From Thermoplasmata archaeon (GTDB lineage: Archaea > Thermoplasmatota > Thermoplasmata > Thermoplasmatales > Thermoplasmataceae): a DNA stretch of 6,224 bases. Positions within the stretch are counted from its first letter, which is position 1. Each line of letters starts with the position of its first letter. The notes beneath the pieces are model-generated. The model worked only from the letters and a program-made list of their open reading frames with translations. It had not been told where the DNA came from and did no database searches. A program made the translations under genes and the position numbers. The DNA lies in the NCBI GenBank assembly GCA_021811525.1, contig JAJZOK010000027.1, forward strand, positions 1 to 6,224. The letters run 5' to 3'. Of the stretch, positions 1,108-6,224 are shown piece after piece.

Positions 1108-1899
1108 TTATCTCGGCACTGAGTGATGTGTGATCTTGGTAACATCGTCATTTAATCCATTTTCAGTCTTTTGAAAGCAAATGGCTGCAACATAGTCGGC
1201 AACTTGTAGGCATTTGTCATCGCGTGAATCTCTGTTTGACGACCTTACGGTTATCTTCAAGCTGTGTAATGATCCCCTGGGAAAGTTCATGGCGGCATTG
1301 AGCTGTACATCGAAGTTTCTCAAGACGTTCTCGCCTCTTTTTCTGTCAACTGTTGCGTTCACGTTTCTATAATTTCTTAGGCTTGTTTCTAGCAGACATT
1401 TTACCACCATTTCACTGTACAATTTATTGACATTGCTTTTCTCTATTGACCGTACGAGCCTCTTATTTATGCCGATTACCGAAAACCCGATATCGCTGCT
1501 GTTGATCAATTCAATAAATTGACTCCTGACTTCAGGGCTGTCATTGCTATACTTGAATTCGTATATTTCCTTCTTGCTTCTTCCATTTATTTTACGCATG
1601 AGTTTGCGAATTTTCCTCGAAAGGAGAACTGGATCTTCAACTATTACGCATGCAACAACAAATGTATCAGTTGCCTTTCGTGAGAAACCTATATCTCCCG
1701 ATTCATCAATGAAAACATCTATGACTTTTTTAGTGGAACCACGCCATATTGCATTTGGTCGTTGCAGTCTGAAGCAAATTACCTTTTCATCAAGTAGGTC
1801 ATTTGGAGCGCTATGTTTCTCGTAATCAAACCCTCTACGTGAGGGGGAGAACATTCCCTTTCCACCGTGTGATCGATCAGTCAAGAATCCCTTCACCAT
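1108..1899 (-). CDS. DUF3800 domain protein, predicted RNase H-like acidic enzyme, second gene of RHH operon
   Basis: The 263-aa product shows the marks of DUF3800. A first strand carries VFIDESGDIGF (residues 62-72, D65 and E66), followed by EFKYS (114-118, E114 and K116). Then come NATVDRKRG (181-189, D185) and a C-terminal DDKCLQVADYVAA (227-239, D228 and D235). The spaced acidic residues at strand ends suggest an RNase H-like metal site; that is a fold-level inference, and no activity can be read from sequence. Codon 1 lies 7 nt after the stop of the RHH gene, so the two are almost certainly co-transcribed. The DUF3800 core normally starts close to the protein N-terminus, yet about 60 residues precede it here. 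No better in-frame start exists near the core; M16 is the only alternative. The extension may be genuine or point to an upstream sequence change. In this operon it sits where the toxin or effector of a toxin-antitoxin pair would. It has no signal peptide or membrane segment. Confidence 0.85.
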   Translation of the reverse strand: MVKGFLTDRSHGGKGMFSPSRRGFDYEKHSAPNDLLDEKVICFRLQRPNAIWRGSTKKVIDVFIDESGDIGFSRKATDTFVVACVIVEDPVLLSRKIRKLMRKINGRSKKEIYEFKYSNDSPEVRSQFIELINSSDIGFSVIGINKRLVRSIEKSNVNKLYSEMVVKCLLETSLRNYRNVNATVDRKRGENVLRNFDVQLNAAMNFPRGSLHSLKITVRSSNRDSRDDKCLQVADYVAAICFQKTENGLNDDVTKITHHSVPR

Positions 1900-1906
1900 T
1901 TACCAC

Positions 1907-2461
1907 TCATTTTCCCCCCTCGACCGACTTATGCTTAACAACTTTGTCAACAATCCGGTCTTTAGTCAGCGAATCTGACAGGGCTTCAATGATCCTTCTG
2001 GCAATTTCAATTTCTCTGATTTTTTCCCTGCGCTTGTCTGCACCCTTTGAGAGTTCTTGAATGAGATTTTCGAGTATCTTCTTCGGCGTATGAAGCGAAT
2101 CAATGTTAAGATCTGAAACGTCGTTAACAACGTGGTCGGGTTCATCAATCAAGAATCGGCCATTTGATAGAAGTATTATTTCAAAATCGAATGGTTCTGA
2201 GTGTCCCTTGGCACTTTTGTAATATGCTACATCCTTTCCCACAGCAACTCTGGCGCCGAATTCGCGTAGCAGTGGCTTCATTGTATCAAATAGGTTTCGA
2301 TACTTCTCAACGAGCTCTTCCTTGTCTGAACGCCTCGGCCTGAAAGAAAATCCTCTCAATATGTTCTCGGTTACGTCTGAAAGATTAAGACCTTGTTTTT
2401 TTGCCGCCTCAACAACTTGTTTATCGACGCTCAACGTTAATTTGACTTTGTTCCCCGGCAT
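1907..2461 (-). CDS. CcdA-type ribbon-helix-helix protein with long C-terminal extension (antitoxin-like, probable autorepressor)
   Basis: The first ~38 of 184 residues form a ribbon-helix-helix DNA-binding unit: strand KVKLTLSVD (5-13), helix KQVVEAAKKQG (14-24), then LNLSDVTENILRGF (25-38). This matches archaeal proteins annotated as CcdA-family type II antitoxins. RHH proteins dimerise and bind palindromic DNA, usually their own promoter. Unlike the ~70-80-aa antitoxins, this one has about 145 more residues. A central part (70-110) alternates hydrophobic strands, such as FGARVAVG and FEIILLSNGRFLID. A charged helical tail (126-176) includes KRREKIREIEIARRIIEAL. I do not recognise this extension; it may bind the partner or a ligand. 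ATG is chosen because a TATA-like box lies 27 nt upstream with no Shine-Dalgarno sequence. Inverted CCGTAT half-sites lie beside that box. No CcdB-like toxin is present; DUF3800 follows 7 nt downstream. Confidence 0.85.
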   Translation of the reverse strand: MPGNKVKLTLSVDKQVVEAAKKQGLNLSDVTENILRGFSFRPRRSDKEELVEKYRNLFDTMKPLLREFGARVAVGKDVAYYKSAKGHSEPFDFEIILLSNGRFLIDEPDHVVNDVSDLNIDSLHTPKKILENLIQELSKGADKRREKIREIEIARRIIEALSDSLTKDRIVDKVVKHKSVEGGK

Positions 2462-2483
2462 TTACCACAGAATCTTGCGCCGG

Positions 2484-2496
2484 TTATTTATTTCTT
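2484..2496 (-). promoter_or_regulatory. TATA box and purine-rich BRE of the RHH-DUF3800 operon
   Basis: On the minus strand AAGAAATAAATAA lies with its A/T-rich core centred about 27 nt upstream of the ATG at 2461. The purine-rich AAGAAA at its upstream edge fits a BRE. The spacing implies transcription starting at or next to the ATG, giving a leaderless mRNA; no Shine-Dalgarno sequence is present before the ATG. Confidence 0.62.
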
Positions 2497-2525
2497 CCGT
2501 ATTATGATACGGGTGTAACCCGTAT
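2497..2525. promoter_or_regulatory. Candidate operator: three alternating CCGTAT half-sites beside the TATA box
   Basis: A perfect 8-bp inverted repeat with a 3-nt centre, ATACGGGT-GTA-ACCCGTAT, occupies 2507-2525. A third half-site, CCGTAT at 2497-2502, forms a second inverted pair with ATACGG at 2507-2512 around TATG. The half-sites therefore alternate in direction (+, -, +) and abut the BRE/TATA of the RHH operon. This is the arrangement expected if RHH dimers bind cooperatively and block assembly of TBP/TFB. That the RHH protein binds here is inference; the repeat is directly visible. The ATPase promoter at about 5160 lacks this motif. Confidence 0.6.
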
Positions 2526-3026
2526 TTGTACCTGTATGAGCAGATAATCAGGTTTGGCGTGAACTACTCGGGCCGTCATATGGGTATAGCTACAGCGGCA
2601 CCGTAGAATACACTTGTACTGGTTTCTCGCGCTGTGCTCTGCCTTCTTCCTCCAATTTATTGACGCTTCCTTGTTGGTTGTCAATAGTTTCCGTTAGGTA
2701 CACTTAATTTGAGAGGCGCATGGCTCCATCATCTTCTAGATGTGATTTATAACAGTTGGAGTAGTGCGGGTTATTTGCTCTATTGCAAAATCTTTGCCAA
2801 GTCGCACTCATTCCTGAGAATATCAAAAGTCCCAAATTCTGGAGGATGCGCCAATTTTGCCTCCATGCCCACTAAGCGCCAGCGCAGGGGAGGAGTAAAT
2901 CGCATATGCAATCCAGCCATGTCGAGAACACTGTTGATAGGATTCTTGTTTTGCAAAAAAGACAACGTCGTTAGATTGCTCAATGACTCCCTCGGATGTC
3001 TGCTGGCTTTCTTAAAATGGAGGAAG
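2526..3026. other. Non-coding stretch between ATPase terminator and RHH promoter
   Basis: I see no convincing gene in these 500 bases. Overlapping frames exist on both strands: about 107 codons plus from TTG at 2709, and 67 codons minus from TTG at 2983. Each is the antisense of the other and has no family motif. The 67-codon minus frame has a GAGGGAG Shine-Dalgarno-like run 3 nt before its TTG, so a small gene cannot be fully ruled out. Minor features are an 8-bp palindrome GCATATGC at 2902-2909 and a 5-bp inverted repeat ACCTG/CAGGT near 2530-2553. Together they are no more than chance could produce. Confidence 0.45.
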
Positions 3027-3055
3027 AATTAAAAAAGACAGGGATGCGAACCCCA
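3027..3055 (-). terminator. Probable terminator of the OLD-like ATPase gene
   Basis: On the minus strand a short hairpin with GGG(G) at 3054-3051, loop TTCGCAT and CCC at 3043-3041 is followed by TGTCTTTTTTAATT, with six T at 3036-3031. It lies about 80 nt past the stop of the ATPase gene on the same strand. The loop with its flanks, GGGGTTCGCATCCC, also looks like the T-arm of a tRNA, but no other tRNA parts can be built around it. Confidence 0.4.
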
Positions 3056-3135
3056 GACCTGCTAATCAAGAATCTGAACATAAGTTGGACATGGACAGTT
3101 CGGTATTAGATTAAAGTTTTAAGAGAATACGAATC

Positions 3136-5136
3136 TCATCTGCCATCAAACCTATCATTTATCTTTTCAACAAGAGCGATTATGTTTCTTACCGATGCAT
3201 GCAATGGCTCTTCGTCAGCGTTGTCAACTCCGTTTGGCGTGCCATTCAACATAGGCCAAAACTGTTTTGCCACAATTGATTTGTTGTAATCCACTCCGTT
3301 ACTTTCAGCAATTTCTTTGCACCAGTTCACGATTTTCTTTCTTTCGCCTTTGTTATCCAGCTCTGGAAAATCAATTCCCTTCTCAATGGTCCGCATAAAA
3401 GTTGCGAAGTAAAGTCTTGGGTCTATAAGGTCTTCAGAGTCCCCTTCTCTCCCTATAATTTCGCCTATTTGCAGGATATACTTTTGTTTGTCTTCCTCTG
3501 GAATCCTGTTAAGGACTTCATGATCAGTTTTTTGAGCGCTGTCTACTATAACGAGGAAATCCACTCCTGCTTTTTTGTAGAACTTGATGTAATCCAAGAT
3601 GTTCGGAATTCCACCTATCTCGTCCACAGAATATAGGTCTCTGCTCAAGTACTTTTGACCGGTGCGCTCCAAGTGCTCGTTGAATGCCAAGAAGATATCC
3701 ATGTCGGTTATTCCCTCAAAAAGGAGAGTCCTGGAAGCCCCATATAGAGAATACCTTGCAGGAGATCCTATGTATTCTCTGATTCGTGTTAGAACACTCA
3801 CATCGGTTGGAGCACTTAAGCTGATTATCTTAGTGCCATCACCAGTCTTTTTCTCCACCAACCTGATTATATCTGGTCGCCAGGGATCAATAAGTGCGCG
3901 CTCATGCGAAGTATAGATGAGCTGGAGCTTTTCCGAGTTGCTAACCTCTTTCAATAATCGGAGTATGTCTCCCTTCCCCTTATCGTGCAAGCTGGTTGCC
4001 GGGTTATCTAACAAAATCACTATTCGTTTGGAAGACTTGGATAATTTTGAAGAAATCTCCATATAGAACGCCAGCCACCATTTGAATCCTTCACTTCCTT
4101 CGACTACGGAGACTATGGAGTCGGTTTCAAGGTCTTTTACGTAAAACGTCAAGTTTGTATTGTCTGAACTTACTCTAAATTCATATTTTTGCTGGCTCCA
4201 GAGTTTGCCTAATACCTCTGTCAGCTTTCTTGAAATCGTTTCGTAATATGAATTTCTTAACTGTGCATCTTTTGTCCTCACATTTTGGACTCCGCTTGGT
4301 AACAAATCTTGAGTAAGCAAAGCTATTGAACTGAAGGTTTCCGAACTGCTTGGGTCGCTTATGTATTGGTCCATTGATATTTTATCCTCTATGTTGAAGA
4401 CGCGATCCATGTAGTAAATGGCTGGAAGATTGCTTATTAGGAGATTAAACGGTGATTTGCTTAACTTAGAACGTTCCTCCCTTATTCTATCTTCAATCTC
4501 CTTGAGCCTCTGGTCGTGCTCCCCTTGAAACTGAGGGTCTTTTGGGATCGGTGCCAAAGAGTTTCTCAGGGACTGAACTGCCAAGTCGCTCTCTTTATTG
4601 TCTCCAAAATTAGTTTTCTTAAATGTGTCAAGGGCACCGTTAAAAGCACCTTCATGAACACGTATGTTATTGAAGTTCCGGTTCATGGCGTTACGGAAGT
4701 TATTTCGCAACTCTTCAACGGCCTTCAGTATGGTAGTCTGGTCAAGCGGCGCAATCTTTACTTCATTATCACGTGCAAATACGGAAAAATGACCGTCCAG
4801 ATACCTGTTAAGAGTGATTTCAGTTACGCCGTCACTTTGAATTGCACCGGATAGTTCTTTAGCGTCGCTTTCGTCTAACCTAAGCTTTGCCTCAACAACC
4901 TTAACGCTAGAAGCCGCCAAAGATCCGTTCGTAATCTTCTGAGAGATGTCAGAACCCCGGAAGAGTTCAGACTCTTTAGGGATAACTTTTGAGTCCAGAA
5001 GTCTAACACCCTCCAAGAAGGAGGTTTTGCCAGTACCAGTCATTCCAACGAGGCATGTCAGGCACTTTTCCAGTCTTACGACACCACTATCTTTAATCGA
5101 CTTGTGATTATAAACAGATACACTCTTAATCCACAT
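3136..5136 (-). CDS. OLD-like protein: ABC/SMC-type ATPase with C-terminal TOPRIM-like domain
   Basis: The 666-aa product has Walker A G-MTGT-GKT at residues 31-38. A helical, charged middle (about 134-230, including QRLKEIEDRIREERSKL) fits the coiled-coil insert of this class. A signature-like GSEGFKWWLAFYMEI (347-361), Walker B RIVILLDNPATSLH (371-384) and an H-loop IYTSHE with H411 complete the ATPase. A TOPRIM-like domain follows, with LLFEGITD (471-478, E474), FLVIVDSA (527-534, D532) and EDLIDPRLY (568-576). This order and the length fit OLD-family nucleases, which act on DNA and often serve in anti-phage defence. Two key positions are odd: the Walker B glutamate is Asn378, and the second acid of the TOPRIM D-x-D is Ala534. 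ATPase or nuclease activity may therefore be altered. The ATG has its own leaderless-type promoter. No GajB-like helicase partner is adjacent; the upstream gene, 450 bp away, is a Res-type helicase-nuclease. Membership of the ATPase class is sure; nuclease activity is not. Confidence 0.85.
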   Translation of the reverse strand: MWIKSVSVYNHKSIKDSGVVRLEKCLTCLVGMTGTGKTSFLEGVRLLDSKVIPKESELFRGSDISQKITNGSLAASSVKVVEAKLRLDESDAKELSGAIQSDGVTEITLNRYLDGHFSVFARDNEVKIAPLDQTTILKAVEELRNNFRNAMNRNFNNIRVHEGAFNGALDTFKKTNFGDNKESDLAVQSLRNSLAPIPKDPQFQGEHDQRLKEIEDRIREERSKLSKSPFNLLISNLPAIYYMDRVFNIEDKISMDQYISDPSSSETFSSIALLTQDLLPSGVQNVRTKDAQLRNSYYETISRKLTEVLGKLWSQQKYEFRVSSDNTNLTFYVKDLETDSIVSVVEGSEGFKWWLAFYMEISSKLSKSSKRIVILLDNPATSLHDKGKGDILRLLKEVSNSEKLQLIYTSHERALIDPWRPDIIRLVEKKTGDGTKIISLSAPTDVSVLTRIREYIGSPARYSLYGASRTLLFEGITDMDIFLAFNEHLERTGQKYLSRDLYSVDEIGGIPNILDYIKFYKKAGVDFLVIVDSAQKTDHEVLNRIPEEDKQKYILQIGEIIGREGDSEDLIDPRLYFATFMRTIEKGIDFPELDNKGERKKIVNWCKEIAESNGVDYNKSIVAKQFWPMLNGTPNGVDNADEEPLHASVRNIIALVEKINDRFDGR

Positions 5137-5583: not shown

Positions 5584-6224
5584 TTACAGATCAGAAAAAA
5601 TCTTGCTGACATCATCTATCCAATATTTCCTGTACTTTTCACCCACCATACTCAAGTTGTCCGTTTTCATGAATAGGTACACTTTTATGAAGAAGCTACT
5701 AAACTGAAACTTTTTTTGAGAGTCATTATCTTCAAACAGTTTACTGAAATAGTCAGCTTTTTGTTGATAGTCTGTATATTTGGTACTCTTTGGATCGACG
5801 AACACTATTTTATAATCATTTCCCTTCTTAAGCCAAAATATGAAATCTGGGGAGTAATTCCTCATTCTGTTTTTTTCTGCATCGTAATAAGGGATATTGA
5901 CTCTGTCTAGAGTCTCATCAATCTTAGAAAAGACCCACCAGTCTAATTTTAGGTACTTTCCCTCATCACTTGATATGAATGAATCGAGGTCATGGATGAA
6001 TTTCTTCTCACTATCGACCTTTATTATGTGGTTAATGAAATCCGCCTTATCGGAGGCTGCCAAAATTATTGGCAGGTAGTAATGGTATGCCAGATTTACT
6101 AGCTCTATTTTACTATCGTCGTAGTCGAACAATAATTTCTTCTTGGTGTTTGCCCATTTCTCAACTTGGGAAGTATATTCATCTATATCTATCTCCTTTG
6201 ACTTCAATCCAACTCTTCTTTTGC
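5584..6224 (-). CDS. Type III Res-like helicase-nuclease, C-terminal nuclease part (5' end beyond right edge)
   Basis: The frame stays open to the right edge, so this is the last ~212 residues of a larger protein. The TTG at 6207 should not be taken as its start, because in-frame codons KRRVG continue upstream. In visible numbering, LDWWVFSKIDETLDRVNIPYYD (93-114) leads into a PD-(D/E)xK nuclease core: YSPDFIFW (124-131, D126), then IVFVDPKS (139-146, D143 and K145), then TDYQQKADYF. That WWxFSKIDE...PDFIFWLKK...VFVDPK order is typical of the C-termini of DEAD/DEAH helicase-endonucleases related to type III restriction Res subunits. These enzymes translocate on DNA and cut it, usually at about 900-1000 residues. 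The helicase motifs would lie outside the window. KRRVG at the visible start may be the sequence just after the helicase core. No Mod methyltransferase lies downstream on this side; it could lie upstream. The gene ends at TAA and faces a plus-strand T-run. Confidence 0.85.
   Translation of the reverse strand, partial: KRRVGLKSKEIDIDEYTSQVEKWANTKKKLLFDYDDSKIELVNLAYHYYLPIILAASDKADFINHIIKVDSEKKFIHDLDSFISSDEGKYLKLDWWVFSKIDETLDRVNIPYYDAEKNRMRNYSPDFIFWLKKGNDYKIVFVDPKSTKYTDYQQKADYFSKLFEDNDSQKKFQFSSFFIKVYLFMKTDNLSMVGEKYRKYWIDDVSKIFSDL

Follow-up and report, generated by a model that had tools for sequence, protein, structure and literature searches.

The locus considered here raises the question of what controls a predicted nuclease of the DUF3800 family whose gene follows closely on that of a long ribbon-helix-helix (RHH) protein: an antitoxin-like partner, as a sequence-only reading had proposed, or another element. 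The locus lies in a 6,224-nucleotide (nt) stretch of a Thermoplasmata archaeon (contig JAJZOK010000027.1; the window), which was analysed over its whole length. We think it probable, by somewhat more than an even chance, that the locus is an archaeal DUF3800 nuclease-RNA module to which a regulator gene has been added. The parts on which this reading draws are the following.

1907-2461, (-) strand: long RHH (CcdA-like) gene, an open reading frame (ORF) of 184 amino acids (aa)
1108-1899, (-) strand: DUF3800 gene, an ORF of 263 aa with its stop codon at 1108-1110
1006-1092, (+) strand: divergent candidate for a DUF3800-X structured RNA (Rfam RF02984) that carries an additional hairpin and runs convergently to the DUF3800 gene
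976-983, (+) strand: TATA-like box CTTAAATA, 8/8 match, starting 30 nt before the RNA
1101-1106, (+) strand: six consecutive T following the RNA, a possible terminator read from the sequence, adjoining the DUF3800 stop codon

The RHH-DUF3800 pair is real: both ORFs and the 7-nt gap between them on the (-) strand, RHH gene first, were found as the sequence-only reading had given them. Its assignment of the second gene to DUF3800 was upheld by Pfam (PF12686, 38.6 bits, E 2.2e-9, cut-off 21), and the RNase H-like spaced acids that it had pointed out are conserved among 29 aligned DUF3800 proteins, D185 being invariant and D65, E66, E114 and D235 near-invariant. In the structural model, of which residues 1-33 are of low confidence, the match to the type 2 RNase H fold spans the DUF3800 domain, and the protein is accordingly described here as a predicted type 2 RNase H-like nuclease. 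The PADLOC model DUF3800_VII, which we take to be linked to retrons, also matches the protein (1.5e-9). The nuclease fold is common to the window protein, DUF3800_VII and the DUF3800 accessory proteins of CRISPR loci, and the latter two are found with RNA-using systems; unlike the setting of DUF3800_VII, no reverse transcriptase was present among the five window ORFs searched with Pfam. DUF3800 accessory proteins at CRISPR loci are treated in passages of PMC10910872 and PMC12669027, and as to the action of DUF3800 on RNA, passages of these two papers and of PMC11701678 offer only guesses.

The candidate RNA was found by comparison of the window with 4227 Rfam families, among which DUF3800-X RNA gave the best match (25.1 bits, E 0.078; about 1.8e-5 when the E-value is divided by the number of families, and 0.0044 in a search of 351 nt). 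The match spans the whole model (positions 1-73) and retains both internal-loop motifs, AUGA and UGGGA; the consensus stems are formed, the sole marked non-standard pair being the outermost. The minimum-energy fold of 1006-1092 consists of an outer stem, the added hairpin and the inner stems, with the hairpin inserted after the first stem, where one also occurs in alignment A11 (6 of its 12 members). Its folding energy of -33.1 kcal/mol was equalled by none of 200 shuffles, and no other 87-nt segment reached its z of -4.55 in a set of 1230, made up of 1228 grid positions plus the candidate RNA in either orientation; the grid positions themselves went down to -4.32 at 6051 (-) and, next, to -3.97 at 1001 (-). 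The RNA ends 15 nt from the DUF3800 gene, towards which it is directed, a convergent layout that is a pattern seen in this analysis and not a curated criterion. The DUF3800 RNA motifs were reportedly first described in a 2017 paper. In a passage of the Rfam 15 paper (PMC11701678), DUF3800-I and -IX are named only in a table.

RF02984 exceeds its cut-off in 37 genomes of a phylum sample of 294 and in 3 of another sample of 292, and all 45 listed places were fetched (one, L167, is below the cut-off). In 19 of these 45 loci, which include the near-copies L130/L131, L137/L139 and L129/L141, an intact DUF3800 gene (at least 180 aa) faces the RNA with its stop codon beside the RNA 3' end, as in the window; 16 of them have a gap between -6 and +10 nt and one has a gap of -38, and the remaining two ORFs read through the RNA. 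Between -30 and -23 the RNA loci have a high AT content (0.76-0.89), the best TATA-like 8-mer (at least 7/8 letters) starts at -38 to -22 in 15 of the 45, and any such 8-mer was found there in 21 loci, compared with 11 at -60 to -44. By comparison with these loci the window RNA is divergent and scores below the cut-off, and the window alone has an RHH gene before the nuclease gene: at a threshold of E 0.001 all 45 lack a window-type RHH within the stretches read (L123 to its contig end). Across the loci read, such a DUF3800 gene is more often accompanied by a convergent structured RNA than by an RHH gene, and because no RNA locus holds one, the RHH gene beside DUF3800 looks like a lineage-specific addition.

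Among the 26 loci without a facing intact gene, no DUF3800 gene was found in 18, L123 is truncated where its contig stops, a broken or partial gene lies beside the RNA in L134, L147, L157, L161 and L165, and short fragments lie there in L133 and L138. The tblastn matches on the RNA itself (L126, L128, L132, L136, L140, L142, L146) were not counted as remnants because the query ORFs (L129, L141) read through the RNA. Persistence of RNAs beside a broken or absent nuclease gene would be compatible with an antidote or with an independent function of the RNA, but the count is biased because the loci were found by their RNA. In L112, L120 and L122 a tRNA lies within 300 nt of the DUF3800-X RNA; the two share a strand except in L120.

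When the census was taken from the protein side, PF12686 was found at 37 places in 33 of 246 genomes; by coordinate comparison 20 of these places adjoin an RF02984 place and 17 do not. A permissive Rfam scan that covered 11 of these 17 loci and the plasmid loci L171 and L172 found no DUF3800 RNA. Three plasmid records match DUF3800 and none matches the RHH protein; phages matched neither protein. From viral contigs 34 loci with DUF3800 genes were fetched: no DUF3800 RNA was present in the 8 scanned with Rfam at gathering level, and no upstream RHH of the window kind was seen by eye in the 34 (at most three upstream ORFs of at least 30 aa per locus, near the DUF3800 start). Viral contigs gave no RHH relative with RHH profile A1 and one partial match of 34 residues with profile A4.

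The RHH protein scores just below the Pfam cut-offs for CcdA (PF07362, 20.5 bits against 22.4) and DUF6364 (24.5 against 27.3). The sequence-only reading had called it CcdA-type, a label that is fair because many of its relatives carry the CcdA domain in precomputed annotation (those in L001 and L045 exceed the cut-off with 30.4 and 29.4 bits), while the window copy itself stays under the threshold. Its structural model (mean predicted local distance difference test, pLDDT, 74.9) starts with an N-terminal RHH part of low confidence (pLDDT 41-62); behind it come one helix, a small region of beta strands and, at the C-terminus, a long helix. No PDB entry matched the model with an E-value of 0.001 or lower. 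The profile search for relatives returned 107 proteins with E up to 0.01, of which 102 have 158-221 aa, and the window protein belongs to this family of long archaeal RHH proteins. Full-length matches were found at 3 places in 2 genomes in a sample of 392 (any match in 19), at 1 place in 1 genome in a sample of 389 (any match in 24) and, at E up to 1e-10, at 7 places in 6 genomes in a sample of 149, the three samples overlapping. Most matches in the two larger samples were dropped since they cover the first ~30-50 residues only. The same was done with L002-L007, short RHH proteins with a match so confined. In a run of profile A1 on the stop-to-stop ORFs (at least 50 aa) of 41 loci, hits were obtained only in L001-L007 (E up to 0.1). 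No RNA family was found at gathering level with Rfam in the RHH loci L001, L045, L046 and L063. The neighbourhoods of eight RHH loci other than the window were read, with the following next gene on the same strand.

L001: NYN nuclease, gap -4
L168: NYN nuclease, gap 21
L183: NYN nuclease, gap 16
L170: membrane-like protein, 94 aa
L180: 271-aa protein
L181: 99-aa protein
L169: no same-strand gene near after the RHH gene
L182: sequence ends 191 nt past the RHH gene

An NYN-domain nuclease thus directly follows the RHH gene in 3 of the 8 loci, the proteins of L168 and L183 being closely alike. Upstream of the window RHH gene, these elements were found.

2507-2525, no strand: perfect palindrome, operator candidate, ATACGGGT-gta-ACCCGTAT, with two TACG half-sites
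2497-2501, (-) strand: third TACG half-site (TACGG)
2485-2493, (-) strand: TATA-like AAATAAATA before the RHH start codon, read from the sequence

The palindrome, with two 8-nt arms 45 nt before the RHH start codon, is the operator-like site of the sequence-only reading and proved to be perfect; 42 of 5000 dinucleotide shuffles of the upstream 100 nt contain a comparable one (perfect, arms of at least 8 nt, spacer up to 6). In the 100 nt upstream of the nine RHH genes, including that of the window, TACG/CGTA words number 48, against a shuffle mean of 20.2 and a largest count of 31 among 500 shuffles. This enrichment holds for the nine loci jointly and not for the window alone, which has the palindrome; singly, the words are not unusual at L001 (216 of 500 shuffles as high) or L182 (67 of 500). 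Judged by the NYN partners and the shared TACG words, the RHH protein looks like an antitoxin-type protein that regulates its own gene and can change its partner.

Two further genes of the window lie upstream of the pair.

3136-5136, (-) strand: AAA_15 and OLD-like TOPRIM gene (Pfam), 666 aa
5584-6222, (-) strand: ORF running off the window end, with weak resemblance, below cut-offs, to TnsA or a restriction endonuclease

The first encodes a defence-type protein, with AbiLi, mad3, AriA and Old as top PADLOC models; the 3' part of the second, around 6051 (-), folds unusually well as RNA. A comparable neighbourhood is seen in L141, where an AAA/OLD-like TOPRIM gene (4715-6748, (-) strand) lies 17 nt upstream of the RNA-linked DUF3800 gene, and in L156 a Type I restriction specificity gene (1944-3224, (+) strand) lies upstream of such a gene.

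Several results weigh against a nuclease-RNA module with an added regulator. The RF02984 score is below the gathering threshold of 38.2. Of our own RNA models, R1 (11 pairs) found no match in the window, and R2 placed 1030-1092 fourth among its window hits, with 6.3 bits. R2 was built from 18 members of one length class and has good covariation, with double-sided changes in 12 of 19 pairs, a number that none of 500 shuffles attained. R3, built from 12 members nearer in build to the window RNA, ranked 1006-1092 first (11.7 bits, E 0.088; 0.0043 in 301 nt), with a second window hit at 11.3 bits, barely lower; on known loci its weakest member has 27.2 bits and other hits reach 15.2. L001 outscores the window with both models (R2 19.8, R3 17.6 bits); the two models match at separate sites, each thousands of nt away from the RHH gene, and these matches were taken as background. 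R1 and R2 thus give the window RNA no support and R3 supports it weakly. The opposite strand of the RNA also folds well (z -4.25), so that the z-score does not pick the strand, and segment 6051 (-), at -4.32, sits inside a coding region. In a tree of 47 DUF3800 domains the window's kin form a branch of their own among RNA-linked and RNA-free rows; the window protein is not clearly within the RNA-linked rows, and the tree is undecisive. Taken singly, the window does not stand out in its TACG half-sites (81 of 500 shuffles reach its count), and the RHH-DUF3800 pairing was read in DNA at the window only. The RNA is called divergent because of its low scores with our own models, and the case for it rests jointly on Rfam score, place, direction, promoter and folding. 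Were the match due to chance, as its sub-threshold score and the equal or higher scores of unrelated places would allow, the pair would be made up of a regulator plus a nuclease with an unrelated role; we regard this as unlikely, since none of the 4227 families matches better, position and orientation are those expected, the folding z is the lowest in the window and a TATA-like box lies at the right distance.

Type II toxin-antitoxin operons include those with RHH antitoxins such as CcdA, VapB and the like, and the window resembles them in having a DNA-binding RHH gene first, a short gap and an upstream palindrome. It differs from them in the 184-aa RHH protein with its extra region and in a partner that is predicted to be a type 2 RNase H-like DUF3800 protein. 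If the RHH protein bound and silenced a toxic DUF3800 nuclease and repressed the operon, the RNA would be a side feature or not real; the gene order, the 7-nt gap, the palindrome, the NYN nucleases after other members of the RHH family and their common TACG half-sites all speak for this. Against it, the gene after the RHH gene is not always a nuclease (L170, L180, L181), and 19 of the 45 RNA loci have an intact DUF3800 gene and none a window-type RHH; therefore such DUF3800 genes live without it. We hold it to be possible but on balance doubtful. As to an upstream RHH gene at other DUF3800 genes, which the sequence-only reading had named as a check, the pairing is indicated beyond the window in a single relative, and indirectly: an RHH relative and a DUF3800 relative, each 71% identical, have longest contigs of equal length (40,107 bases), which suggests linkage without showing it. 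One relative of the RHH protein and one of DUF3800 bear the name Nitrososphaerota archaeon. The proposed toxin-antitoxin-like pairing is partly supported: the long RHH family, its NYN partners, the TACG enrichment and the modelled DUF3800 nuclease fold speak for it, and against it stands that the pairing was seen in the window and, by inference, in that one relative only. The suggested linkage and the 7-nt gap also make it improbable that the RHH gene is a mere neighbour of a unit formed by DUF3800 and the RNA, perhaps with the OLD-like ATPase in a defence island, as the arrangement in L141 and the same-strand OLD-like gene of the window could indicate. In type III toxin-antitoxin systems RNA repeats lie upstream of the toxin gene on its strand, whereas the window RNA candidate lies downstream of the DUF3800 gene on the opposite strand. 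Passages of a toxin-antitoxin survey (PMC2701414) give RHH antitoxins with other partners and do not contain the word NYN, and no description of the RHH-DUF3800 pair was found in the searched open-licence literature, among the matches listed.

In a nuclease-RNA module with an added regulator, the DUF3800 protein would act as a type 2 RNase H-like nuclease, and a small DUF3800-X-type RNA would be transcribed from its own promoter towards the 3' end of the DUF3800 gene and would most likely bind the nuclease, which it may hold in check, guide or be cut by. The long RHH product probably binds the TACG half-sites, which recur in its family, at the presumed shared promoter and represses it; through its extra C-terminal part it may, like an antitoxin with its toxin, form a complex with the nuclease as well. 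The locus thus suggests a DUF3800 nuclease controlled by both protein and RNA. A stricter version, in which the RHH protein represses and perhaps binds the nuclease, the RNA encoded against the 3' end checks it, and the orphan archaeal RNAs are antidotes against such modules, is speculative and in our view unlikely. DUF3800-linked RNAs are known; what differs here is the RHH gene before the nuclease gene. By joining a candidate DUF3800-X RNA, a nuclease and a DNA-binding partner, the locus offers a concrete three-part unit in which one can ask whether the RNA inhibits the nuclease, guides it or is cut by it.
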